Below, in pieces: positions 21,828 to 33,995 of a stretch of 33,995 nt of DNA. Positions within the stretch are counted from its first letter, which is position 1. Each line of letters opens with the position of its first letter. Made by a program: the position numbers and the translations under genes. Below the pieces are notes generated by a model. The model was not told where the DNA came from and ran no database searches. It saw only the letters and a list, made by a program, of their open reading frames with translations. The stretch comes from Gammaproteobacteria bacterium (GTDB lineage Bacteria; Pseudomonadota; Gammaproteobacteria; Pseudomonadales; IMCC2047), in assembly GCA_021773395.1 (NCBI GenBank), contig JAJFKB010000006.1, positions 1 to 33,995 of the forward strand, given 5' to 3'.

Positions 21828-22301
21828 GTGAAGGCATCTTCAAAACAATCCAAAGATAGTGCGATAAATCTGGGGATTTTGGAAAATATCATTGGTTATC
21901 AATTGCGCAGAGCGCAGACCGCTTTGTTCCAGAATTTTGCCAGAAAGGTAGCGTCAAAAAATATAACGCCTGGTCAATTTGGTTTGTTAGTGAAGATTAA
22001 AAATAACCCTGGGATCAGTCAGACTGCCTTGGCCAGAGCGGATGGTATTGAACGATCTACGTTGGGGGAGATTATTGATCGATTTGAAGAGCGTCATCTG
22101 GTAGAGCGCCGCAAGCATGCGGTTGATAGAAGGGCCTACGCTTTGCATTTGACGGAAGAGGGTGTTGCCTTTCTTGATGAGGTCATCCCTCTGGTTTTTG
22201 AAAATGATGCCGAGATGCTGGAAAATTTTACAGCAGGTGAAGAGAAAGAACTGATAAGACTGCTTAAAATGCTGGCTGATCGGAGTGCCAGCGAGTCTTA
22301 A
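21828..22301 (+). CDS. MarR-family transcriptional regulator
   Basis: This is a dimeric winged-helix regulator of 157 residues. The DNA-binding core is NNPGISQTALARADGIERSTLGEIIDRFEERHLVERR, followed by the wing HAVDRRAYALHLTEEG, flanked by dimerisation helices. GTG 21828 is preceded by GGCGGAAAAGG. The ligand is unknown. It lies upstream of a hemerythrin-like gene and the rsx operon but 500 bases away, so control of those genes is only a guess. Confidence 0.88.
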   Translation: MKASSKQSKDSAINLGILENIIGYQLRRAQTALFQNFARKVASKNITPGQFGLLVKIKNNPGISQTALARADGIERSTLGEIIDRFEERHLVERRKHAVDRRAYALHLTEEGVAFLDEVIPLVFENDAEMLENFTAGEEKELIRLLKMLADRSASES

Positions 22302-22809
22302 TTGGGAGTTAAATAGGTGTGTATCAGATCGGCCGAAAAGTTTCTATCCTATCGGCCGTAGATATTTAACAGCCATGATATTTGCTTGAAAGCTGTTGTC
22401 CCATTGTAAGCTACGCTAAGTTGCCGTTGCGCTTAAGATTATCCGATTTCAGGAACACCTTTTTCCTTGTTCGAACGTGACGGTTTTACTCGAGCTGAAA
22501 AAACTACCTTAAAAGCGCATTAATTTCCCTATCCCTTCATGATGCGTCTAATCTAATATTAATGAGTTTCAAAGAGCTTCAAATCCGTGGTGTATTTTTT
22601 GGCGCGTGACGTTTCGTTGTGTGGCCATCATAGAGTCATACCGTAACGACGACGTTGAAGAAACCCTTACAATAAGGTATGCTTACATTAAATAGATACT
22701 ACAATTACGCTTTTTGATCATTCCTGTTTATGGGCAGATATAGCATTCAGCTCGTTGTGGGTAGTCGCCAGCAAGTCTTTTGACCGGGGCGGATAATTTT
22801 CAGAGAGTC
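22302..22809. other. Long intergenic region between marR and hemerythrin-like gene
   Basis: There is no supported gene in about 500 bases. ATCGGCCG occurs twice (22328-22335 and 22351-22358), starts 23 bases apart (about two helical turns), just after marR. The rest is AT-rich with stops in all frames. The size leaves room for a promoter region or a small RNA, but I could not identify either. Confidence 0.5.
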
Positions 22810-23277
22810 ATGCACGGGATGATGGAGTTCGACCTGATGACGGTGGATTATAGTTTTTTAAAAGTTGTTCATGAGCAGCAGTTGGAGATGATAGAGATTC
22901 TCGAGTTGTTTGAAGATGTCCTCCTGGATGCTAACTATCAAGATAAATGGCAAGCAGGAAATCAGGAAATCAGTAGCTTGTTCCGTAAGGTTGAGAATTT
23001 GATCGCCCGACATTTAGCCTTCGAAACGGACCACCTGTTGCCGCTGCTAGACAAGAGTGGTAGCGGTCTGGTGATGCAGCGATTGCTTAAACAGCGAGAA
23101 CTGATTTTAACCCATCTCGCCAAGATGACCTGTCTGATACGCGAGCTCCAGGTTAGCGATCTGGGTGTGTGTGTTTGGGATGATTTTGTTGATACTGCGC
23201 TCAGTCTGGTGCGCGCCACCTTTGCTCTGTTCCATTGGGAAGAGTTAGAATTTTTGCCCTGTTTCAGAAAGTGTTGA
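22810..23277 (+). CDS. Hemerythrin-like (HHE) protein
   Basis: This is an all-helical protein of 155 residues. His and Glu positions fit a hemerythrin four-helix bundle: VVHEQQLEM, ARHLAFETDHLLPLL, THLAKM and FHWEELEFLPCF. The last has H-x2-E but lacks the usual P-x-L ending. This suggests a di-iron or modified centre that could sense or carry O2 or NO, or hold iron. ATG 22810 was chosen; ATG 22819 is equally possible, and the frame opens at TTG 22780. It is upstream of rsxA with a 160-base gap. A second, more canonical hemerythrin follows the rsx genes. Confidence 0.6.
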   Translation: MHGMMEFDLMTVDYSFLKVVHEQQLEMIEILELFEDVLLDANYQDKWQAGNQEISSLFRKVENLIARHLAFETDHLLPLLDKSGSGLVMQRLLKQRELILTHLAKMTCLIRELQVSDLGVCVWDDFVDTALSLVRATFALFHWEELEFLPCFRKC

Positions 23278-23334
23278 TAGCGAATGGCCAGCTTGGGCTA
23301 TTTTGCGCAGCGTCAATTTAAAGATGAATTAATA

Positions 23335-23350
23335 TTGACTGGCATCCAGT
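23335..23350 (+). promoter_or_regulatory. Palindrome over -35-like box upstream of rsxA
   Basis: TTGACT (23335-23340) resembles a -35 box and overlaps the inverted repeat ACTGG-CAT-CCAGT (23338-23350). The surrounding sequence (ATATTGACT...AGTATTGTAT) loosely recalls an IscR type 1 site but the spacing is wrong. It is probably the control region of the rsx operon. Confidence 0.4.
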
Positions 23351-23439
23351 ATTGTATGATAGGCTATTAGTAAGTAACACTGACATTATGATACCAATAA
23401 TATTAGGAAATTATTCATTTCTCGAGAGGAATATGGCCG

Positions 23440-24015
23440 GTGTTTAGCGATGCAGCGCTGTTGCTTAGCGCGATCTTAGTGAATAATTTTGTCCTTTCAC
23501 AGTTTCTCGGATTGTGCCCTTTCATGGGGGTGTCAAATAAGGTAGAGACTGCGATTGGAATGGCGGCGGCGACCACATTTGTGTTGACGTTGGCTTCTGC
23601 CTGCGGCTATCTGGTATATCACCTGCTGCTTGTTCCCCTCGGCCTGGAGTACCTCAAAACTATTTTCTTCATCCTGATGATTGCCTCAGTTGTGCAATTG
23701 ACCAAGATGATTATCGAGAAGACCAGTCCCATTCTGTATCGGGTTCTCGGGGTGTTTTTACCCTTGATTACGAGCAATTGTGCTGTGCTTGGAGTGGTTT
23801 TGCAGAATACGGCGAAAGAGCACACCTTTCTTCAATCCCTGATTTGGGGGTTTGGTGGTGCGCTGGGCTTCTCACTGGTTTTGGTGTTGTTTTCTTCTAT
23901 GCGAGAACGTATTGCCGCCGCAGATGTTCCCGTTTCGCTTCAAGGGACGGCGATCGGTATGGTGACTGCCAGTCTGATCTCTTTAGCTTTTATGGGGTTC
24001 GCCGGGTTAGTCTAA
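23440..24015 (+). CDS. rsxA: Electron transport complex subunit RsxA/RnfA
   Basis: This is a membrane subunit of the Rnf/Rsx ion-pumping complex, 191 residues with six membrane helices. Typical motifs are [18 protein letters not shown] and [12 protein letters not shown]; the conserved Cys pair helps form the intramembrane Fe-S site with RsxE. It starts at GTG 23440 with GAGAGGA 9 bases upstream. It is the first gene of rsxABCDGE. Confidence 0.96.
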
Positions 24016-24041
24016 ACCTGGTGTAAATAGGGGCTTCCATT

Positions 24042-24632
24042 ATGTACGCACTTTTGATTTCCTATCCATTGTTGTCCGCCCTGGTTGCACTTGGCAGCCT
24101 GGCGTTATTGTTTGGTGGAGTGCTCGGTTTTGCTGCGGTACGTTTTCGCGTTGAGAGTAATCCTATTGTTAACCAGGTGGATGAGCTGTTGCCTCAAAGC
24201 CAATGTGGTCAATGTGGTTATCCCGGTTGTGTTAATTATGCAGAAGCGATCGTAAATAATGATGAGGCGATCAACAAATGCCCGCCGGGTGGTCAATCGA
24301 CGGTTAATGCAATAGCAGAACTATTGGGTGTTGAAGCACCGGCCTCGGACGAGGAAGGCACCGCTTCGGGTCCTGTTATTGCGTACATTGATGAAACAGA
24401 CTGTTATGGTTGCACAAAGTGTCTGCGCACCTGCCCGGTAGATGCCATCATCGGTGCAACCAAGCAGATGCATACGGTTATTGATACCGACTGTACCGGC
24501 TGTGGTCTATGTGTAGATACCTGTTCAACCAACTGTATTTCAATGTACCCGGTACCGGTGACTACCAAGAATTGGGTATGGGAATTACCGGAGTATCCGG
24601 TGGTCATGGCGCGTGCAGGTAAAAAAGTATGA
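24042..24632 (+). CDS. rsxB: Electron transport complex subunit RsxB/RnfB
   Basis: This polyferredoxin subunit passes electrons to RsxC/RsxD. The N-terminal helix is a membrane anchor. CGQCGYPGC and the downstream Cys form one 4Fe-4S site. Two ferredoxin motifs follow, CYGCTKCLRTCPVDA and CTGCGLCVDTCSTNC. It has 196 residues. Its TGA overlaps the rsxC ATG (ATGA, 24629-24632). Confidence 0.96.
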   Translation: MYALLISYPLLSALVALGSLALLFGGVLGFAAVRFRVESNPIVNQVDELLPQSQCGQCGYPGCVNYAEAIVNNDEAINKCPPGGQSTVNAIAELLGVEAPASDEEGTASGPVIAYIDETDCYGCTKCLRTCPVDAIIGATKQMHTVIDTDCTGCGLCVDTCSTNCISMYPVPVTTKNWVWELPEYPVVMARAGKKV

Positions 24633-26104
24633 TCAATTTATTTAAACGGTTACGGGGTGGAATTCATCCACCTGATCGTAAGCAGATGTCTGCCGAACAC
24701 CCAATTCGCCTGATGCCTTTTGCTGACCGGTTAGTATTGCCTCTATCTCAGCACATAGGTACCCCAGCACATACTGTAGTAAAGATTGGCGAAAAAGTAC
24801 TGGGTGGACAGTTATTGGCGGAGGCCGACGGGCATTTTAGTTTACCTGTGCATTCGCCTACCTCGGGCAAAGTGATTGGTTTTGAGGATCGTCGGGTACC
24901 GCATCCGTCAAACTTAATGGCACCCTGCATAATGCTTGAGGTCGATGGAGATCATCGCGCCGTTGAGCAACAGGGTTTCGATGATTTCGAACAGGTGCCA
25001 AAAGCAGAGCTCTTGGCAGCCATCAGATCCTGTGGTATTGCAGGAATGGGGGGGGCGGGATTTCCCACTGATGCGAAGCTGAAACCGAGAGCAGGGAGCG
25101 CGATTGAGACATTGATCATCAATGGCATGGAATGCGAGCCTTACATTACCGCTGACGATCGATTGATGCGCGAGCATGCAGATGATGTGGTTGCCGGAGC
25201 CAGAATTCTTGCTCATTTGCTGGATAACCCAGGACGCTGTTTGATTGCTGTTGAAGATAATAAACCGGAAGCGATCGCGCAGCTTCGCCAAGCGGCGTCG
25301 GGCTCTGAAGTTGAAGTGTTGGAGTTGCCGACCAAATATCCATCGGGTAGCGAAAAACAACTGATACAGTTGGTTACAGGACAAAAGCTTCCAACTGGGC
25401 GATTGCCTTCGGATATCGGCGTGATGGTGCAGAATATTACCACCACAGTTGGTGTGTTCCGAGCGATTAAGCACGGTAAGCCAATGGGGGCCAGAGTGAC
25501 CACCGTGACGGGTAAGGCCATCGCTAATCCAGGTAATTACAAGGTGTTGATGGGTACTCCTGTATCTCACGTGCTTAAGGAAACCGGCTATCAACCTGAG
25601 TTATCCTCACGCTTGATTATGGGAGGGCCGATGATGGGCTTTACCATTACGGATACTGAAATCCCTATTATCAAGACCAGTAATTGTGTGCTCGCGCCGA
25701 CACAGGATGAGTTTGGTGAAGTGGATACGCCGCAAGCCTGTATCCGGTGCGGACGCTGTGCGCAGGTTTGTCCCATGCAATTGTTACCGCAACAGCTTTA
25801 CTGGTACTCGCAAAGTAGAGATCAGGACAAATTACAGCGTTATAACCTGTTTGATTGTATTGAGTGTGGCAGTTGTGCCTATGTCTGCACCAGCAATATC
25901 CCGCTGGTACATTATTACCGAGCTGCGAAAGGGGATATTCGGAACCGGCAACAGCAGCAGCAAGCTGCAGCGGGAGCTAAAAAACGACATGAGAAACGTA
26001 TGGCTCGTATGGCGGCATTGAAGGCCGAGCGTGATGCCAAGCGCAAGCCTCGAAGAGAAAGTGCATCGCCCGATGCAGGCAAAACTGAAACCCTAGAGTC
26101 TTGA
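24629..26104 (+). CDS. rsxC: Electron transport complex subunit RsxC/RnfC
   Basis: This is the peripheral flavin/NADH-side subunit. It has 491 residues and is a short form lacking the long repetitive C-terminus of the E. coli protein; here it ends in a Lys/Arg/Ala-rich tail of about 50 residues with a run of five Gln. Visible are the Gly-rich GIAGMGGAGFPTDAKL loop, NGMECEPYITADDRLM, and two ferredoxin motifs (CIRCGRCAQVCPM and CIECGSCAYVCTS). It is translationally coupled to rsxB. Confidence 0.96.
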   Translation: MINLFKRLRGGIHPPDRKQMSAEHPIRLMPFADRLVLPLSQHIGTPAHTVVKIGEKVLGGQLLAEADGHFSLPVHSPTSGKVIGFEDRRVPHPSNLMAPCIMLEVDGDHRAVEQQGFDDFEQVPKAELLAAIRSCGIAGMGGAGFPTDAKLKPRAGSAIETLIINGMECEPYITADDRLMREHADDVVAGARILAHLLDNPGRCLIAVEDNKPEAIAQLRQAASGSEVEVLELPTKYPSGSEKQLIQLVTGQKLPTGRLPSDIGVMVQNITTTVGVFRAIKHGKPMGARVTTVTGKAIANPGNYKVLMGTPVSHVLKETGYQPELSSRLIMGGPMMGFTITDTEIPIIKTSNCVLAPTQDEFGEVDTPQACIRCGRCAQVCPMQLLPQQLYWYSQSRDQDKLQRYNLFDCIECGSCAYVCTSNIPLVHYYRAAKGDIRNRQQQQQAAAGAKKRHEKRMARMAALKAERDAKRKPRRESASPDAGKTETLES

Positions 26105-26117
26105 TCGAGAAGCTGCT

Positions 26118-27173
26118 ATGAGTTTAATGAATGTCAGTTCGCCGCACTTATCACAACCTGGCGATGCGGGATCAATGATGCGCTTAGTGCTATTCGCGAC
26201 CCTGCCGGGTCTTCTAGCGCTCACATACTGGTTTGGCTGGGGAAGTCTGATCAACGTTGTTTGGGCGGCGCTGCTGGCAATATTTTTTGAAGCTGTTTCG
26301 TTAGTTATACGCGGGCGTAAAATCACCTTTTATTTAAGAGACTATAGCGCCGTTTTAACAGGTGTTTTACTAGGATTAGCATTGCCGCCACTGGCGCCTT
26401 GGTGGGTAACTTTGGTTGGCGTTGGATTTGCCATTGTGATTGCCAAGCATTTTTTCGGTGGATTGGGACACAATCCTTTTAATCCCGCGATGGTCGGCTA
26501 TGTTGTGCTACTGATCTCCTTTCCCGTGGAGATGACCTCCTGGGTGGCGCCGCGGGATGTGATGGCAGGGCAGCAGGAGCTGCTAGGGTTTGGCACTACC
26601 ATGACACAAATATTTCCCTTTTTTGGGCAGCCGGTAGATGGTTATACCATGGCGACGGCTCTGGATCTCTATAAGCAGCATCCAGGTGAGATTGTTCAGC
26701 AGTCTGAACAGGTGCAGTTAGCTTTTGGCCTATGGGGAGCTAAAGGGTCCGAGTGGGTAAACTTGGGATATTTGGTTGGTGGATTATTTCTGGTTTACCG
26801 TCGAGTGTTTACCTGGCATGCGCCAGCTGGGATGCTGGGGGCAATTATTTTACTTTCGTTATTATGCAATGGACTGCTCGGTATGCAGGTAGCCGCTCCA
26901 CCGCTGTTGCATCTGTTTAGTGGTGCCACGATGTTAGGGGCCTTCTTCATTATTACCGACCCGGTGACTTCAGCGGTCAGCCTCAAGGGAAGACTGCTTT
27001 ATGGACTCGCCATTGGTAGTCTTGTCTTCGTGATACGCACGTGGGGCAACTATCCTGATGCTGTTGCTTTTTCTGTATTGTTAATGAATTTTGCGGTGCC
27101 TTTCCTCGATTACTATACGCAACCTCGGTCATTTGGAAAAGCGGCACTTTATGCCAAGCGGGATAAAGGGTAG
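26118..27173 (+). CDS. rsxD: Electron transport complex subunit RsxD/RnfD
   Basis: This membrane flavoprotein has 351 residues and about ten helices. The Thr in SGATMLGAFFIITDPVTSA is the site of covalent FMN attachment, as in NqrB. GHNPFNPAMVGYV is a second conserved stretch. It is tightly spaced with rsxC (13 bases) and rsxG (11 bases). Confidence 0.96.
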   Translation: MSLMNVSSPHLSQPGDAGSMMRLVLFATLPGLLALTYWFGWGSLINVVWAALLAIFFEAVSLVIRGRKITFYLRDYSAVLTGVLLGLALPPLAPWWVTLVGVGFAIVIAKHFFGGLGHNPFNPAMVGYVVLLISFPVEMTSWVAPRDVMAGQQELLGFGTTMTQIFPFFGQPVDGYTMATALDLYKQHPGEIVQQSEQVQLAFGLWGAKGSEWVNLGYLVGGLFLVYRRVFTWHAPAGMLGAIILLSLLCNGLLGMQVAAPPLLHLFSGATMLGAFFIITDPVTSAVSLKGRLLYGLAIGSLVFVIRTWGNYPDAVAFSVLLMNFAVPFLDYYTQPRSFGKAALYAKRDKG

Positions 27174-27184
27174 AGGCTTGAACT

Positions 27185-27868
27185 ATGACTAATATAGCGC
27201 GATCTATGGGAGGCTCTGCACTGGTGCTGGGGCTGTATGGGGTGATAGCAGCAGTGCTGACGGTTGGGATTTATATTTCTACCAAGGATACTATTGTTGA
27301 GCAGCAGCGCATGGCCAAAGCAAGAGCCCTGACACAAATTGTAGAGGAGGGGCAGTATAATAACCAGCTGCTGGATGATCAGTTGGTTCTGCATCAGGTT
27401 AATCTATTAGGCCCCGTCGATGAAGCTTTGGCCTACATTGCACGGCAAGGCCGCGAGGCAGTGGTGGTTATTTTACCGGTCACTGTAATTGATGGTTATG
27501 GCGGTGACATGAATATGATTGTTGGAGTGCGGGCGGACGGCAGCATATCCGGGGTGCGAGTTTTAAAGCACAACGAGACTCCCGGTTTGGGAGACAAAAT
27601 TGATATTCGAAAAAGCGACTGGATAGAAGCGTTTAGTGGGCGCTCGTTGGCGAATCCAAATATCGAACGGTGGACCGTCAAGAAAGACGGAGGTGTATTT
27701 GATCAATTTACCGGCGCCACCATTACGCCACGCGCTGTTGTGAAGGGCGTAGCAAGGGCTCTATCTTACTTTGAAGCTAATCGTCAGTATTTGCTTGCGG
27801 CCTTACCTGAACCGAAAGAAACACCGCCTGTTGAGCAACGTATAAAGGAGACTGTCCATGGCCAATGA
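27185..27868 (+). CDS. rsxG: Electron transport complex subunit RsxG/RnfG
   Basis: This subunit has an N-terminal membrane anchor and carries covalent FMN. It has 227 residues. The conserved Thr is in DQFTGATITPRAVVKGV, after the HNETPGLGDKI motif. Its end overlaps rsxE by 11 bases. Confidence 0.96.
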   Translation: MTNIARSMGGSALVLGLYGVIAAVLTVGIYISTKDTIVEQQRMAKARALTQIVEEGQYNNQLLDDQLVLHQVNLLGPVDEALAYIARQGREAVVVILPVTVIDGYGGDMNMIVGVRADGSISGVRVLKHNETPGLGDKIDIRKSDWIEAFSGRSLANPNIERWTVKKDGGVFDQFTGATITPRAVVKGVARALSYFEANRQYLLAALPEPKETPPVEQRIKETVHGQ

Positions 27869-28541
27869 AAACTATAAAGATATTGCGGCCAATGGATTAT
27901 GGAATAACAATCCGGTTCTGGTACAAGGTTTAGGCTTGTGCCCATTGCTTGCAGTCACAGGCTCAGTGGTCAATGCGATGGGATTGGGGTTGGCAACAAT
28001 CGCCGTGCTGACTGGAGCGAACGTTTCTATTTCACTGGCACGACATTATATTCCCGATGCAATACGCTTACCTATTTTTGTGATAATCATTGCTTCGTTT
28101 ACTACCTGTATCGAACTGTTGATGAACGCCTTTACCTTCGAACTATATGAAATACTGGGTCTCTTTATCCCTTTGATTGTGACCAATTGCGTTATCCTGG
28201 GGAGAGCGGATATTTGTGCCAGCAGGGTGGCTCTATTGCCAGCGGCATTTGATGGATTGATGATGGGGCTGGGTTTTACGCTAGTACTGTTGGTGCTAGG
28301 GGGAGTTAGAGAAATGCTCGGGGCAGGTACTCTGTTTGCCAATATGCATTTATTATTTGGCCCGATGGCAGAGAGTTGGACCTGGCATCTGGTCGATCAG
28401 TATAATGGTTTTCTGCTGGCGATATTGCCACCTGGAGCGTTTCTGGCAACCGGCTTGTTGATTGCGGGCAAGAATATTATTTCCAGGCGTTTGACCAAAC
28501 GTGCTTTGATTGCGCAAAAAGCGCCGGAATCAGCGGGGTAA
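27858..28541 (+). CDS. rsxE: Electron transport complex subunit RsxE/RnfE
   Basis: This is a membrane subunit paired with RsxA, 227 residues with six helices. NPVLVQGLGLCPLLAVT and IPLIVTNCVILGRAD carry the conserved Cys residues matching those of RsxA. ATG 27858 has AAGGAG upstream inside rsxG. The rnfH gene starts 6 bases after its stop. Confidence 0.96.
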   Translation: MANENYKDIAANGLWNNNPVLVQGLGLCPLLAVTGSVVNAMGLGLATIAVLTGANVSISLARHYIPDAIRLPIFVIIIASFTTCIELLMNAFTFELYEILGLFIPLIVTNCVILGRADICASRVALLPAAFDGLMMGLGFTLVLLVLGGVREMLGAGTLFANMHLLFGPMAESWTWHLVDQYNGFLLAILPPGAFLATGLLIAGKNIISRRLTKRALIAQKAPESAG

Positions 28542-28546
28542 GCGCC

Positions 28547-28810
28547 ATGAGTGAGTCAAGTAATCTAGCGATAGAAGTTGCCTACGCTGAGCCTGGAAAA
28601 CATGTCATTATCCCTGTGCAGGTACCTGAAGGCACCAGTGTTTGGGATGCAGTGAAACTATCTGGAATTCTTGAGAAAGTGCCGGGCATTGATTTACAGA
28701 CTCAGAGCATTGGTGTGTACGGAAAAATTGCCCGCAAGGCAAAGCAACAGATGGTAAAAGAGGGCGACAGAGTTGAGATCTATCGGCCCGTGAATTCGAC
28801 CGAATCTTAG
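28547..28810 (+). CDS. rnfH: RnfH-family ubiquitin-like protein
   Basis: This small beta-grasp (ThiS/MoaD-like) protein has 87 residues and the family ending VKEGDRVEIYRPV, but no C-terminal Gly-Gly. RnfH proteins are often linked with rnf operons, though their role is unclear. It is the last of the classic rsx genes in this cluster, 6 bases from rsxE. Confidence 0.9.
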   Translation: MSESSNLAIEVAYAEPGKHVIIPVQVPEGTSVWDAVKLSGILEKVPGIDLQTQSIGVYGKIARKAKQQMVKEGDRVEIYRPVNSTES

Positions 28811-28851
28811 GGGTGTATCGCAGCACTCATTGATATTTTCAGGAGATGTAT

Positions 28852-29289
28852 ATGACAACAATTAACGAATATATGACGCAGGATCATCGTCGTTGCGATG
28901 AGGTTTTTGCCAGTGCGGAAGCAGAGGTAGATCAGGGTAATTGGGAAGAAGCAACAAGAATTACCAAAGAGTTTTTGGATCACATGGAAGGCCATTTTAG
29001 AATGGAGGAACAGGTTTTATTTCCAGCACTGGAGAATAAAACGGGTATGACCATGGGGCCTACCCAGGTAATGCGACAGGAGCACGACCAGATGCGGGTG
29101 TTGTTTGACCAAATGCGTTATGCACTGGATTCGCAGGATGAAGATGAATTTTTAGGTGCTAGTGAAACGCTCTTGATCACTATGCAGCAACACAATATGA
29201 AAGAAGAGGGTATTGTGTATCCCATGAGCGATGAGCAGTTATCTGAAGAAAATGCACAAGTTCTGGATCAGATGAAGGGCGTTGTTTGA
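28852..29289 (+). CDS. Hemerythrin domain protein
   Basis: This is a canonical single-domain hemerythrin of 145 residues with a full set of di-iron ligands: QDHRRCDEVF, HMEGHFRMEEQVLFPAL, RQEHDQMR and QQHNMKEEGIVYPM. It can bind O2 or NO and may protect or sense. ATG 28852 was chosen because AGGAG lies 6 bases upstream; ATG 28846 lies only 1 base after that AGGAG. It follows rnfH by 41 bases and precedes the DUF2249 gene by 3 bases. Confidence 0.93.
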   Translation: MTTINEYMTQDHRRCDEVFASAEAEVDQGNWEEATRITKEFLDHMEGHFRMEEQVLFPALENKTGMTMGPTQVMRQEHDQMRVLFDQMRYALDSQDEDEFLGASETLLITMQQHNMKEEGIVYPMSDEQLSEENAQVLDQMKGVV

Positions 29290-29292
29290 CCG

Positions 29293-29580
29293 GTGAATAG
29301 CGAAACAGGCGAAGTATTTCTTGACCTCAGGGGATTGGAGCCTCCCGATCCCTTTGTTCGTTCGATCGAAGCGTTACAGCATTTACAGGCGGGGCAATAT
29401 CTTCATCTGATACATACACGGTTACCGGTGATGCTATTTCCGGAGCTTGAACCGCGTGGTTTTGTATCTGATTCCTGCCAGGATGTGCAGCAACTGTTTC
29501 ATATATTGGTCTGGCAGCAAACCGACAAGGCCGCCAGCATTAATGCAAAAAACCATCTCCAACTTCTAAAGAAAAGCTGA
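29293..29580 (+). CDS. DUF2249-family protein
   Basis: This is a small cytoplasmic protein of 95 residues with the DUF2249 pattern: DLRGLEPPDPFVRSIEALQ then HTRLPVMLFPELEPRGF. The fold resembles TusA/SirA but lacks the CPxP cysteine. In denitrifiers DUF2249 genes often accompany hemerythrins and NnrS-type proteins; the function is unknown. The start is GTG 29293, 3 bases after the hemerythrin stop. Its TGA overlaps the next ATG by one base. Confidence 0.82.
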   Translation: MNSETGEVFLDLRGLEPPDPFVRSIEALQHLQAGQYLHLIHTRLPVMLFPELEPRGFVSDSCQDVQQLFHILVWQQTDKAASINAKNHLQLLKKS

Positions 29581-30914
29581 TGAAGCTAGAAGGCCTTTCG
29601 TTACAGCAGGCACCACCGATTTCGGTGCCATTTCGCTTTTTTATTGCAGCGCCACTGTTTGGTATTTTTTCGGCTTTGTTGGTAGTTGGGCTGGGCGAGG
29701 AATCCCTGGTTTCTCGCTGGACACCGGGAACTCTGGCGATTACCCATGGATTGCTGCTGGGTTTTCTTACCAGCATTATGTTCGGTGCACAAATGCAGAT
29801 GTTACCGGTATTGGCAGGTGCCGTCGTTAAAAACCCGAAGCAGCTTAGCTGGATTATTCAGCTGGCATGGATAGCCGGTGTGCTGCTGTTACAGTTTGCT
29901 TTTATGCGCGGCGAAGCTTGGGCGTTTCAGCTAGCGGCAGTATTGCTGGCGGGTGCTGTTTTGGTATTTGCGGGTTCCTCAGGAGCAGCGTTATATCGCG
30001 CAACCTCCAATATTGCATCCGTACCAGGAATGAAATTTGCGTTAATAGCCTTGTTGGTAACTATTATCTGGGGGGTGGTCCTGGGCTTGGGGCATAGTGG
30101 TCAGTTGACACTACAGCGCCCAATTGGGACGAACCTGCATTTGATGTGGGGGCTTTTAGGTTGGGTCGGTCTACTCATTATCTCAGTAGCCTACCAAGTG
30201 GTGCCGCTATTCCAGATCACCGATGCTTATCCGAAAAAGATGACACGATTTTTTACGCCAGCAGTGTTTACACTTCTGGTGTTGAGAATGCTCGCTGTGC
30301 TGATACAGTCCCAGATAGAGGCCAATGGCCAGGCACTAACTTACGTACTCGTATTTATTGATCTATTGCTGTCAGCGGGGCTTATAGCCTTTTCCCTAAT
30401 TACATTGCAATTGCAAAAGCGTCGTTTACGCAAGGTCAAGGACAGTCATCAGAAATTCTGGAAAGTTGCCTGTTTTGGGTTGCTCACTTCTATTCTCTGC
30501 TGGTGGGTTGCGCGCTGGAGCGGCGATCCCTCATACACCGAGCTTGGCTTGTTCTTAAGTGTTACCCTGTTTATTGCCTGCTTTGTGATACCGGTTGTGA
30601 CAGGTATGCTCTATAAAATCGTCGCATTTTTAATCTGGTTTCATTTGCAAGGGATGAATACCGAACGCATGATGGCGGGGCAGCCAGCAATCAAGGTGCC
30701 GCATATGAAAGCGGTCATCTCTGAAAAACGTATCAAGAGTCAGCTAATGCTGCTGTATCTTGCTATTCTGGTGACGCCTTTTGTGGTTATCTGGCCGGCA
30801 TTGTCAAGCATACCCGCTGGAGTAGTCTGGATGGGGTATTTTTCTATGATGCTGTACAACCTCTGTTATGCCTACCTGGAATACAGGCAATATGCTGCGG
30901 GTAAAGCGGCGTAA
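29580..30914 (+). CDS. NnrS-like polytopic membrane protein
   Basis: This integral membrane protein has 444 residues and about 12 helices. Conserved segments are ITHGLLLGFLTSIMFGAQMQ, with MLPVLAG directly after it, and NLHLMWGLLGWVGLLIISVA followed by QVVPLF. The His residues in these helices are possible heme or metal ligands, as proposed for NnrS and heme-copper-like proteins. NnrS proteins protect against nitric oxide in denitrifiers, which fits the hemerythrin and DUF2249 neighbours. It overlaps the DUF2249 stop (TGATG). It might instead be a distinct family with the same architecture. Confidence 0.75.
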   Translation: MKLEGLSLQQAPPISVPFRFFIAAPLFGIFSALLVVGLGEESLVSRWTPGTLAITHGLLLGFLTSIMFGAQMQMLPVLAGAVVKNPKQLSWIIQLAWIAGVLLLQFAFMRGEAWAFQLAAVLLAGAVLVFAGSSGAALYRATSNIASVPGMKFALIALLVTIIWGVVLGLGHSGQLTLQRPIGTNLHLMWGLLGWVGLLIISVAYQVVPLFQITDAYPKKMTRFFTPAVFTLLVLRMLAVLIQSQIEANGQALTYVLVFIDLLLSAGLIAFSLITLQLQKRRLRKVKDSHQKFWKVACFGLLTSILCWWVARWSGDPSYTELGLFLSVTLFIACFVIPVVTGMLYKIVAFLIWFHLQGMNTERMMAGQPAIKVPHMKAVISEKRIKSQLMLLYLAILVTPFVVIWPALSSIPAGVVWMGYFSMMLYNLCYAYLEYRQYAAGKAA

Positions 30915-30958: not shown

Positions 30959-31861
30959 TTACAAATTTTGCATTCTGATGGGCTGCTCGGAAGTGACGAG
31001 TTTCTGTTGTAAGCGGTTCCAATCGTCATCGACATTCGCTTGCATTTGCTCGACCTGCTCCGGGCTGACATGTCGGTAACGGCGCTGTCCTTTTAAGTAT
31101 TCGGCGACGGTTGCAGTTTTGCTCGCATGATTGAGCCGATAACGATGTCCATCTTCAATCTCGTATAAAGGCCAAACTCCCGACTCTACAGCCAGACGAG
31201 CCAGGCGAATTCCCGCATCGTCCGACAGTCCCCATCCAGCGATACAGGGGATCAGTACGCTGATAAATTTAAAACCTCGAATCTCTTTGGCTTTGTTAAC
31301 CTTGGCAACCATATCGTTAATATTGCTGGGTGAGGTGGTGGCTACGTAAGGAATGTCGTGCGCTGCCAGAATTTCAATCATATTCTTTTTACGCGAAGAT
31401 TTGCCTTGCGGAGTGGAGCCGGTGACTGCCATTAATGGCGTTGATGAGCTTTTCTGGCCACCCGTATTCATATAGCCTTCATTATCGAAACAGATGTACA
31501 GCAAGTCTTCGTTGCGTTCGACCGCCGATGACAAGGCCTGGAAGCCAATATCATAGGTGCCGCCATCGCCCGCCAGACAAATGACTGTGGTGTCTTCTTT
31601 GCCTCGCGCATTAAGGGCTCTTTTTACACCACTTGCGGTAGCAGCTGTTGATTCCAGTGTGGTCTGACACACCGGTATGCCCATCGCGCTATGCGGATGC
31701 ATGCCGCATATGACCGCTCCGCAAGATGGGGGGACTACGGCAATAGCGTTGGAGCCGATGGTGTTGAGTATAACGCGTAATGCAAGTGCTTCACTGCATC
31801 CGGCGCAGGCAACGTGTCCTGAAGTGAAAAAACCGTCATCTTGATATTCAGGGAAACTCAT
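30959..31861 (-). CDS. 2-oxoacid:acceptor oxidoreductase beta subunit (TPP-binding)
   Basis: This is the catalytic thiamine-diphosphate subunit of a ferredoxin- or NAD-linked 2-oxoacid oxidoreductase. The N-terminal CAGC and later Cys (CGAVICG, LIPCIAGWG) may bind a 4Fe-4S cluster. The TPP motif is LAGDGGTYDIGFQALSSAVE through DNEGYMNTGGQKS. It has 300 residues from ATG 31861, supported by GGAGTG upstream and 4 bases from the alpha stop; the frame extends to 31903 inside alpha. It resembles PorB/VorB; the PadD-like neighbour suggests phenylglyoxylate as a possible substrate, but the known PadI is longer. Confidence 0.9.
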   Translation of the reverse strand: MSFPEYQDDGFFTSGHVACAGCSEALALRVILNTIGSNAIAVVPPSCGAVICGMHPHSAMGIPVCQTTLESTAATASGVKRALNARGKEDTTVICLAGDGGTYDIGFQALSSAVERNEDLLYICFDNEGYMNTGGQKSSSTPLMAVTGSTPQGKSSRKKNMIEILAAHDIPYVATTSPSNINDMVAKVNKAKEIRGFKFISVLIPCIAGWGLSDDAGIRLARLAVESGVWPLYEIEDGHRYRLNHASKTATVAEYLKGQRRYRHVSPEQVEQMQANVDDDWNRLQQKLVTSEQPIRMQNL

Positions 31862-31865
31862 AAAA

Positions 31866-33023
31866 TCACTCCGTCCAGACCGATTGTACGACTGGTTCTG
31901 CATTGGAATAGGCTGCGACCCACTCTTTAATTTTTTCCGGTGTTACGTTTAATCCGCTAACGCCTGTTAGCAAACCATGTAATTTGGGGGTGTTTTGCAT
32001 ACCAAATAGCGCTGCCTTTAACTCCTGGTGTAACACTCCTCCGAGCCCTGGAGAAAAATTCCTGTCCATGGATATGATACAGGGTATGTCTTCAAGCGCG
32101 TCACGGATTTGTTGGTAGGGGAACGGTCGGAACAAGCGTACTTTTAGTAATCCGACTGACACGCCCTGGTCACGCATTTCATCAATGGCCACTTTAACGG
32201 TACCACACATGCTACCCATGGTGACGATAACAACTTTGGTATCATCCATTCTGTAGCCTTCAATAATGCCGTAATCCCTGCCAGTGAGCTCCTTCCACTC
32301 CTTGTTCGCCTGCTCTGTAATTGCGTAGACTTGTTGCATAGCGTCGTCCATATTTCGGCGTGACTGGTAATGAGTATTCTGATCCAGCACATAGCCAAAA
32401 GATTCTACCTTTCCGGGATCCAGTAAATGTTTGGGGTTATAAGGGGGCAAAAATGAATCGACCGCTTCCTGGGACGGAACTTCAATGGGTTCCATCGCAT
32501 GAGACACATAAAAGGCTTCATGATTAACCATAGTTGGCAGACTGACCGATTCGGCAATTCGATAGGCCAGTATAGTGGTATCGATGGATTCTTGCGGGGA
32601 CTCACAATAGAGCTGAATCCATCCGGTATCACGTTGCGCAAGGCTATCGGTCTGATCCGGCCAAAATCCCCAGGGCGAGGCAACCGTTCGGTTGACATTA
32701 AACATTACGATTGGCGTACTGGCGCCAGCGGCCCAGTGAAGCAGTTCGTGCATTAACAGTAGCCCTTGGGAAGAGGTGGCTGTGAACACCCGGGCACCAG
32801 TGAGCGATGCGCTAATGCAGGCGGACATGGCAGAGTGTTCAGACTCTGGTGTCAACAGCTCCGCATCCAATTCTCCAGACGCTTGAAAATCCGTAATTTT
32901 TTCCAGGATAGGTGTTTGTGGTGTGATTGGATAAACCGGTATCACATCTGGACGTGCTAAACGGGCACCCCAGGCAACGGCATGATTACCGCTCAATAAC
33001 ATTCGATTACTTGGCTGCGTCAT
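31866..33023 (-). CDS. 2-oxoacid:acceptor oxidoreductase alpha subunit
   Basis: This 385-residue subunit has the N-terminal pattern GNHAVAWGARLARPDVIPVYPITPQTPILE and a C-terminal transketolase-like domain (GSMCGTVKVAIDEMRDQGVSVGLLKVRLFRPFP). It matches PorA/PadG-type subunits. No gamma or delta (ferredoxin-like) genes are adjacent in the window; they may be upstream of the window end or elsewhere. It is on the same strand as the PadD-like gene, 95 bases away, and 4 bases before the beta start. Confidence 0.9.
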   Translation of the reverse strand: MTQPSNRMLLSGNHAVAWGARLARPDVIPVYPITPQTPILEKITDFQASGELDAELLTPESEHSAMSACISASLTGARVFTATSSQGLLLMHELLHWAAGASTPIVMFNVNRTVASPWGFWPDQTDSLAQRDTGWIQLYCESPQESIDTTILAYRIAESVSLPTMVNHEAFYVSHAMEPIEVPSQEAVDSFLPPYNPKHLLDPGKVESFGYVLDQNTHYQSRRNMDDAMQQVYAITEQANKEWKELTGRDYGIIEGYRMDDTKVVIVTMGSMCGTVKVAIDEMRDQGVSVGLLKVRLFRPFPYQQIRDALEDIPCIISMDRNFSPGLGGVLHQELKAALFGMQNTPKLHGLLTGVSGLNVTPEKIKEWVAAYSNAEPVVQSVWTE

Positions 33024-33118: not shown

Positions 33119-33995
33119 TTACCAACCCTGGTTGGCCCGCTGGCTATTGCCCTGACCTCGCACCGGTGTGCGTGGAATGGCAAATCCCCGCGTCTGTGCG
33201 GCTTTGGTAATGATCGCTGCCTTGGAGATCCAGCCCATGGCAGCGGCCAATAAACCAGCGGCCGGAATGACCAGAGACTTCAAGGCCGGTTGCCAGGTCG
33301 CCACTACCAATAATACGATTGGCAGCAAATGACCCACCAGCATTAACGGTCCCCGTAAACCCTGTATCACCGCCAGACTCGCCTGTGGTGCCTTGCTCTG
33401 CACCAACTGTTGGCTATAACGTATCCAGGTGAGCACACGCACCACCAGTAATAAAGCAAAACCCGCCATCATCCCGTCATTGACCAGCGCCGGTATACAC
33501 AGCGCCAGACCCAATCCTTCCACCAGTCCGGTACTCAGGATATAGGGCGTTAACGCCGGACTTGCCCACGAGGGAATCCCCTTCGCCGCCCGTAACATCT
33601 GTGCCTGACAGTATAAATATCCCGCCGCAATCACTCCGATAACACTGGTCACCAGCGCGCCCTGCGCAGCCGGCGGATAAAACAACACCAGCGCTCCCAG
33701 GGTAAATAACGGAATCGCCAGGATCCCTTCACGGGTCATCCAGGAGGTCTCAGGATGAAAAAACAGATTCATCGAACGCCATGGCCGACCAATCTCCAAC
33801 CACACCATCAATAGACCAAAGGCCACAAAGCCTAAACCCAGTACCAGACCGGTGGCATAAGGCGCGCCCGTCAATACCAGAATCGCCGTGGCGATCAGCA
33901 GACCGGTGCCCGTGCCGCCACCCATAAAGTTACAGGCCGCCCGTAAATCCCAGGAGGTTTGTAAGCGGGGCAAAGGACCCTTACCCTTAAACGGA
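33119..33995 (-). CDS. padD: NrfD/DmsC-like membrane anchor, PadD-like, 5' end outside window
   Basis: The product is an integral membrane subunit of a molybdopterin oxidoreductase, with about 8 helices. It opens LPRLQTSWDLRAACNFMGGG (motif W-x-x-RAACNF-x-GGG) and ends QTRGFAIPRTPVRGQG. I recall both patterns from PadD of phenylacetyl-CoA:acceptor oxidoreductase, which oxidises phenylacetyl-CoA to phenylglyoxylate. The frame has no stop up to base 33995 and continues as PFKGKGPL before TTG 33971-33973, so the true start is beyond the window. The catalytic (PadB-like) and Fe-S (PadC-like) genes would be expected just upstream. Base composition is richer in GC than the two following genes. A generic DmsC/NrfD anchor of another enzyme is the alternative. 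Confidence 0.65.
   Translation of the reverse strand, partial: PFKGKGPLPRLQTSWDLRAACNFMGGGTGTGLLIATAILVLTGAPYATGLVLGLGFVAFGLLMVWLEIGRPWRSMNLFFHPETSWMTREGILAIPLFTLGALVLFYPPAAQGALVTSVIGVIAAGYLYCQAQMLRAAKGIPSWASPALTPYILSTGLVEGLGLALCIPALVNDGMMAGFALLLVVRVLTWIRYSQQLVQSKAPQASLAVIQGLRGPLMLVGHLLPIVLLVVATWQPALKSLVIPAAGLLAAAMGWISKAAIITKAAQTRGFAIPRTPVRGQGNSQRANQGW

Follow-up and report, generated by a model that had tools for sequence, protein, structure and literature searches.

A second Rnf operon followed by a hemerythrin–DUF2249–membrane protein cassette in a gammaproteobacterium of the IMCC2047 group

Why an Rnf operon should run directly into genes for a hemerythrin-like protein, a DUF2249 protein and a polytopic membrane protein is the question raised by a stretch of 33,995 nucleotides of a gammaproteobacterium (Pseudomonadales, IMCC2047; assembly GCA_021773395.1, contig JAJFKB010000006.1), which as a whole is called the window here. 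Based on an open reading frame (ORF) scan and family searches, the locus has the order Hr1, rnfABCDGE, rnfH, Hr2, DUF2249, and NnrSL, all on the plus strand, where Hr1 and Hr2 are the two hemerythrin-like genes and NnrSL encodes the membrane protein. The names, order and strand given in an initial annotation of the window were upheld, with the exception of the label “NnrS-like” for the last gene, and so was its statement that no gap exceeds 41 bases from rnfA (its rsxA) onward. The recomputed gaps are 26 nt (rnfA-B), -4 (B-C), 13 (C-D), 11 (D-G), -11 (G-E), 5 (E-H), 41 (H-Hr2), 3 (Hr2-DUF2249), and -1 nt (DUF2249-NnrSL); the maximum of 41 bases holds given the Hr2 start at ATG 28852, which has an AGGAG close upstream.

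According to our analysis, the Rnf of the window (Rnf2) is the second Rnf of the host genome and belongs to a different lineage from the ordinary copy, and Hr2-DUF2249-NnrSL recurs as a conserved cassette in gamma- and betaproteobacteria. From these findings we propose, with confidence about evenly balanced by doubt, that Rnf2 is an anaerobic, ferredoxin-linked complex that would be co-expressed with a cassette protecting against nitric oxide (NO) in nitrate-respiring growth.

Integrity and lineage of Rnf2

The core subunits A, B, C, D, G, and E of Rnf2 are encoded contiguously, with Fe-S cysteine motifs in B and C and flavin threonine motifs in D and G. The scores of RnfA, B, C, G, and E were above the NCBIfam rsx cut-offs; RnfD scored 408.6 against the RsxD cut-off of 415 and passed TIGR01946 (Table 1). 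Because the subunits retain their Fe-S and flavin motifs, the complex looks functional.

The rnfA family search revealed two genes over the cut-off in the host genome, and a third, weaker match is a candidate nqrE. The other Rnf operon (L057) lies between a methionyl-tRNA synthetase gene and a HhH-GPD (Nth-like) gene, which is the usual metG-rnf-nth setting. In a tree of RnfA and RnfB (33 rows, after removal of 3 loci without full rnfA and rnfB and of 4 duplicate loci; outgroup, the Rnf located about 20 kb from nifH in the relative G049), the window copy paired with the copy of a sister species (support 100/100), and the pair grouped with another lineage of the order (98/90), outside the canonical clade of the family. 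Forcing the pair into that clade was rejected (approximately unbiased (AU) test, p = 0.0045). A recent duplication of the host’s own Rnf was rejected on the tree and the AU test, though the long branch of Rnf2 (1.07) calls for caution and leaves its exact sister lineage uncertain. Across 391 genomes of the order, the only close match to RnfC was in the sister species (83%), the next among the matches listed reaching at most 56%. Two other genera of the family (95 and 86% complete) had one rnfA over the cut-off each, and NnrSL was not found in either.

The sister species (G001, one other species of the genus; L044) carries ubiB-ubiJ-ubiE, MarR, Hr1, rnfABCDGEH, Hr2, DUF2249, and NnrSL in the same order. 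The identity between the two species is 92% for RnfA, 79% for Hr2, 56% for NnrSL, 54% for DUF2249, and 47% for Hr1, and the MarR regulator, at the same position, is 81% identical; the rnfH-Hr2 gap of the sister species is about 87 nt. In G002, another genus of the family, a PHA_gran_rgn gene lies beside ubiE instead, and no MarR gene is present there (L255, a contig of 3,159 bases), which fits a putative insertion of the block in the ancestor of the genus.

Two further observations concern relatives with more than one Rnf. Among 57 relatives, the host (G000), G001, G048, G049, and G054 were all the genomes with two rnfA over the cut-off, and all five hold NnrSL, which occurs in 10 of the 57 (once weakly); this co-occurrence was seen post hoc and is uncorrected for kinship. 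An Rnf of G054 (L050, contig C1) groups with the Rnf located near nifH in G049; weak por-like matches lie some 6 kb from it, and G054 has no nifH over the cut-off.

The Hr2-DUF2249-NnrSL cassette

Searches with NnrSL gave matches in 15 of 391 genomes across the order, two of them marginal (weak rows G031, G579, and G482 left out), and in 49 of 369 genomes of the class (42 of 53 non-own match rows examined, 11 weak or fragmentary rows being left out). In named genomes, the 80 loci examined were the best 80 of at least 536. Besides the window, 133 NnrSL loci were available; 126 of them have Hr2 in the same orientation no more than 2.5 kb away, and in 114 DUF2249 accompanies Hr2. Plasmid searches with NnrSL returned two records of Cupriavidus necator H16 only.

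RnfH, Hr2, and the DUF2249 protein exceeded their Pfam cut-offs. Hr2 has 145 aa and, in Pfam, a hemerythrin domain alone. Its candidate ligands H12, H48, E52, H78, H114, and E118 are kept in 123–124 of 124 sequences, and these candidate positions match the di-iron ligand set of RIC/YtfE proteins. Hr2 stayed below the RIC/YtfE equivalog score (38 bits against 254) and showed no N-terminal ScdA_N-type domain. The label “hemerythrin-like” of the initial annotation for Hr1 holds in part: the gene is present, at 23.9 bits against a Pfam cut-off of 25.3 and 162 bp away from rnfA, and its third candidate ligand histidine differs between the host and the sister species, leaving the ligand set incomplete.

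NnrSL has 444 aa, is polytopic by hydropathy and gave no match in Pfam, NCBIfam or PHROGs. H56 and H187 are present in all 134 homologues and H355 in 123. Identity as NnrS was rejected on a PF05940 search without a match and on a profile comparison (hhalign) with four NnrS proteins (E 0.023, probability 2%), so that the name used in the initial annotation reduces to a resemblance; judged from its sequence, the protein belongs to an unnamed family, here called “NnrSL.” A search of the PDB with the NnrSL profile gave only weak matches, to M chains of photosynthetic reaction centres (best E 9e-4). The host has three PF05940 proteins, encoded on other contigs; about 1 kb from one of these genes lies a benzoate-CoA ligase gene (L151, contig C10; TIGR02262, 637 bits).

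The neighbours of NnrSL were counted by one tblastn rule in sets of 45 and 80 stretches (three loci common to both, the second set including the sister species) and in 20 control stretches, drawn by hand, according to position, from 15 of those genomes. One or more markers of denitrification or anaerobic metabolism were found in 21/45 and 35/80 stretches (56/125), against 2/20 controls (pooled Fisher p 0.003). For N-oxide genes alone, the counts were 12/45 and 23/80 against 1/20 (pooled p 0.026); by this rule, with nirS and nirK not among the references, most NnrSL stretches carry no N-oxide marker. On plasmid pHG1 of C. necator, NnrSL is found together with a hemerythrin gene and a Crp/Fnr gene, with nar genes on one side and nos genes on the other; separately, hemerythrin and DUF2249 form a pair next to a regulator of the Rrf2 family, and a nitric-oxide reductase gene is some 7 kb away. 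Three pHG1 reference genes that we call, on our own assumption, ubiU, ubiV, and ubiT are annotated as U32 peptidases and an SCP2 protein. Upstream of Hr2, a same-strand ORF of at least 80 aa ends within 400 bp in 93 of 126 loci, and most of these ORFs match no reference used.

The recurrence of the whole gene order, which the initial annotation had put forward as a check, was found outside the strain in the sister species, and it stopped at the genus. At least three Rnf subunits near NnrSL were detected in 1 of the 80 stretches, 0 of the 45 and 0 of the 20 controls, the single case being the sister species itself (L068, on the L044 contig). Over all sources and within the stretches examined, Rnf stands beside the cassette at none of 129 distinct other NnrSL loci, 105 of which had at least 3 kb of upstream sequence covered (at least 7 kb in 92 loci, before de-duplication). 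A single RnfB-like tblastn match close to NnrSL in L209 turned out to represent a cytochrome b/Fe-S/FlpD protein. In our sample, the linkage of Rnf with the cassette is thus confined to one genus, and no paper title on an Rnf operon ending in Hr2-DUF2249-NnrSL was found in the part of the title listings that was covered.

Parallels of another kind were revealed when the 133 NnrSL stretches and the 20 controls were searched with the Bcr and Kor proteins of the host. Genes of bcr were found in two NnrSL stretches, and the only control match was a 35% relative of oah. In marine bacterium B5-7 (L075:1-11356), classed by NCBI in the Gammaproteobacteria, one strand carries had-oah-bcrCBAD, a ferredoxin gene, two GNAT-type genes, an SDR gene, and then, after about 187 bp, Hr2-DUF2249-NnrSL. 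In L213 (9236-14561, same class), the run on one strand is kor alpha, kor beta, a rubrerythrin-like gene and Hr2-DUF2249-NnrSL, with bcrC, oah, and had on the opposite strand. In a Glaciimonas record (L117, 422-11338), padE, G, H, and I of phenylglyoxylate dehydrogenase, all over the cut-off, and two further TPP/POR-type genes precede Hr2 and NnrSL; no DUF2249 was detected in this record, and going by its family name the dehydrogenase is NAD-linked. These three parallels, few as they are, favour co-expression with low-potential anaerobic systems over an accident.

The features of the locus are collected in Table 1. The product of the convergent porA-like gene matches the alpha subunit of pyruvate:ferredoxin oxidoreductase (PFOR) in the PDB (9bt4, 2e-91). 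Upstream of porA/porB, at the contig end, lies an ORF for an NrfD-like membrane protein (window 33119-33973, minus strand) below the Pfam cut-off. NrfD-like proteins with about 41% identity to it occur in L102, L107, and L121 (~4.5–11.3 kb), where they stand with a molybdopterin oxidoreductase (family-checked in L102 only) and an Fe-S protein upstream of Hr2 and NnrSL, and in none of the three was a DUF2249 gene detected.

Table 1. Features of the window, with the bcr cluster located elsewhere in the host genome
Feature	Position	Strand	Basis
MarR-family regulator, between ubiE and operon	21828..22301	+	PF01047 52.5 bits
Hr1, diverged hemerythrin-like	22780..23277 (start probably ATG 22810)	+	PF01814 below cut-off
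Intergenic stretch before rnfA	23278..23439	.	Block conserved in sister species (two-sequence alignment)
rnfA, second copy	23440..24015	+	NF003481 285 bits vs cut-off 240
rnfB, cluster motifs intact	24042..24632	+	NF003475 264 bits vs 203; Cys motifs
rnfC, two CxxCxxCxxxC motifs	24629..26104	+	NF003454 682 bits vs 345
rnfD, SGAT flavin-attachment motif	26118..27173	+	TIGR01946 393.6 bits vs 207
rnfG, TGAT flavin-attachment motif	27185..27868	+	NF002519 218 bits vs 178
rnfE	27858..28541	+	NF009070 311 bits vs 184
rnfH (Ub-RnfH)	28547..28810	+	PF03658 93 bits
Hr2, hemerythrin-like, cassette gene 1	28852..29289	+	PF01814 87 bits; YtfE match 1.6e-6
DUF2249 protein, cassette gene 2	29293..29580	+	PF10006 45 bits vs 29.5
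NnrSL, polytopic membrane protein, cassette gene 3	29580..30914	+	No family match; hydropathy
porB-like, 2-oxoacid:ferredoxin oxidoreductase subunit, convergent neighbour	30959..31903	-	PF02775; NF008819 333 bits, below cut-off 405
porA-like subunit, convergent neighbour	31866..33023	-	PF01855; PorA_Arch 439 bits, below cut-off 550
Host bcr cluster	L294:6181-19900 and L295:4-2246, contig C26		Thauera-type had-oah-dch-bcrCBAD, kor, 4-hydroxybenzoyl-CoA reductase

Host metabolism and the possible meaning of the linkage

The host genome encodes NarG (2375 bits) with a NarH-like gene, NorR with a norC-, norB-, norQ-like run, and a second NorB-like protein of 787 aa. The denitrifying setting supposed in the initial annotation is therefore supported by narGH, NorR, two NO-reductase-type enzymes, and the denitrification-type neighbours of the cassette, the host searches having covered nitrate reductase and NO-reductase-type genes. 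Its suggestion of support for nitrogenase failed: no nifH over the cut-off was found in the host genome (98.9% complete), the best match to the nifH profile reaching 41 bits against 394. A role of Rnf2 in supporting nitrogenase was accordingly rejected as very unlikely.

A family search prompted by the adjacent Por genes revealed subunit C of benzoyl-CoA reductase in the host (655 bits, cut-off 421). Its locus comprises had, oah, dch, and bcrCBAD, all over the cut-off, a ferredoxin-like reading frame, an SDR gene, kor alpha and beta over the 2-oxoacid oxidoreductase subfamily cut-offs, and 4-hydroxybenzoyl-CoA reductase genes (gamma subunit 254.3 against 257.8, the other subunits over the cut-off). 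A plasmid search with BcrC gave one distant record. Ferredoxin is described as the electron donor of benzoyl-CoA reductase (PMC6449761).

In the proposed mechanism, Rnf2 (rnfABCDGEH) would link the NADH and low-potential ferredoxin pools during anoxic nitrate-respiring growth, and the same pools would serve Kor, Por, and benzoyl-CoA reductase, ferredoxin being the presumed shared carrier. Rnf2 might either refill ferredoxin for benzoyl-CoA reductase or drain the surplus from Kor and Por. Hr2 is likely to act on NO by binding or reducing it, or else to restore Fe-S or di-iron centres in the manner of YtfE, and the cassette, predicted to be made from the same operon, would limit NO damage to the NO-sensitive Fe-S proteins made concurrently. 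The link would thus consist of shared expression and protection and not of electron flow from Rnf to Hr2.

As for the signals of such expression, positions 23278..23439 are likely to form the promoter region of the rnf operon, and regulation by the MarR protein is possible. The idea of a near-consensus FNR/DNR operator in front of the operon was rejected: the one-mismatch sites (23764 and 28173) lie inside rnf genes, and the upstream candidates (22559 and 23335) have two mismatches. A sigma-70 scan gave 14 sites against 14.9 expected, and Rfam had no match in the window.

Several points weigh against the proposed mechanism. The FNR-type sites are within chance (29 against 22.5 expected, with 9 of 100 shuffles reaching 29). 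The cassette may have its own promoter, because a weak hairpin and a short T run (28811-28828) lie between rnfH and Hr2, and this gap is wider in the sister species. The host bcr cluster is on a different contig, connected with Rnf2 by genome content only, and the Kor encoded within that cluster may be enough to provide its ferredoxin, with no need for Rnf2. The Rnf-cassette junction was seen in one genus only, 69 of the 125 NnrSL stretches carry no denitrification or anaerobic marker, and the parallels are few and were found after the idea had arisen from the host genome.

An accidental neighbourhood, in which a horizontally acquired Rnf operon and the only cassette copy of the genome landed by ubiE, jointly or in succession, and share just a location or a general anaerobic promoter, is a doubtful explanation that still deserves serious weight. 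It would account for the block taking the place by ubiE that the PHA_gran_rgn gene occupies in G002, another member of the family, for its restriction to one genus, and for the different genes upstream of Hr2 among the loci; however, the order has been kept in two species whose NnrSL proteins have diverged as far as noted above, the gaps are tight, and the cassette also follows other low-potential systems in L075 and L213. We regard as improbable a direct coupling, in which Rnf would re-reduce the di-iron centre of Hr2 or power NnrSL as an ion-driven defence against NO or O2. The operon order and the precedent of Escherichia coli Rsx, reported to reduce SoxR after superoxide or NO stress (PMC12174285), speak for it; against it, within the stretches covered the cassette has no Rnf beside it at any of the 129 other distinct loci, and the genes identified in the block include no separate ferredoxin gene. 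The re-reduction of a di-iron centre offered in the initial annotation drew nothing in its favour from our analysis, and direct electron transfer from Rnf to a di-iron protein is unsupported and, under the preferred reading, unnecessary. The same precedent and the upstream MarR regulator could also suggest that Rnf2 resets a redox sensor like Rsx, with the cassette as one target of the sensor, but a conventionally placed copy (metG-rnf-nth) is already present in the host, and we consider this very improbable.

Shared expression of Rnf2 with a protective cassette thus remains our preferred reading. A wider claim, that the cassette is a protection or repair module appended by nitrate respirers to anaerobic low-potential systems (Rnf2, Bcr in L075, Kor in L213, and, as Hr2 and NnrSL, phenylglyoxylate dehydrogenase in L117) and that Rnf2 is in addition the ion-driven NADH-ferredoxin link for class I benzoyl-CoA reductase, appears unlikely in this combined form. 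The analysis supplies a concrete candidate set of partners for a second Rnf outside nitrogen fixation and describes a recurring cassette that has no name yet and whose gene links to low-potential-electron enzymes can be tested. It may open the way to direct studies of how nitrate respirers keep benzoyl-CoA reductase and Rnf working despite NO.

Comparison with known systems

Rnf2 shares the six subunits, RnfH, and intact cofactor motifs with the gammaproteobacterial RnfABCDGE/RsxABCDGE; it differs in being a second copy of separate lineage that has no nth at its end and continues into Hr2-DUF2249-NnrSL. Two rnf clusters in one genome are also described for Azotobacter vinelandii (Rnf1/Rnf2), one of them for a special low-potential task (PMC12174285), whereas the host lacks a nifH over the cut-off and its candidate consumer is benzoyl-CoA reductase. 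The Rnf that lies about 20 kb from nifH in G049 is distant enough from Rnf2 to root the tree. Two clusters per genome are likewise reported for Dechloromonas aromatica, Aromatoleum aromaticum EbN1, and Azoarcus BH72, the role of one of the two in D. aromatica being given as unknown in that source (PMC2907700).

Hr2 resembles YtfE/NorA/DnrN (RIC) in the candidate pattern H, HxxxE, H, HxxxE and in the stretch MGPxxVMxxEHD, and differs in its shorter, single-domain form. In Ralstonia solanacearum, the YtfE-like NorA reportedly contributes to the maintenance of Fe-S proteins while the cells denitrify (PMC9045102). Induction of DUF2249 genes is described for denitrifying haloarchaea, and a role as nitrate sensors has been proposed for two DUF2249 proteins of Thermus (PMC11218638). 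NnrSL is similar to NnrS (PF05940) in being polytopic, with invariant histidines, and in occurring in nitrate or NO reducers, but is not recognised by PF05940.

The Thauera-type bcr operon has the order had-oah-dch-bcrCBAD-fdx (PMC6449761), and the host has the same genes in the same order. The difference lies in the position of the cassette, which in the host sits behind Rnf2 and not behind bcr, whereas in L075 such an operon itself ends in the cassette.

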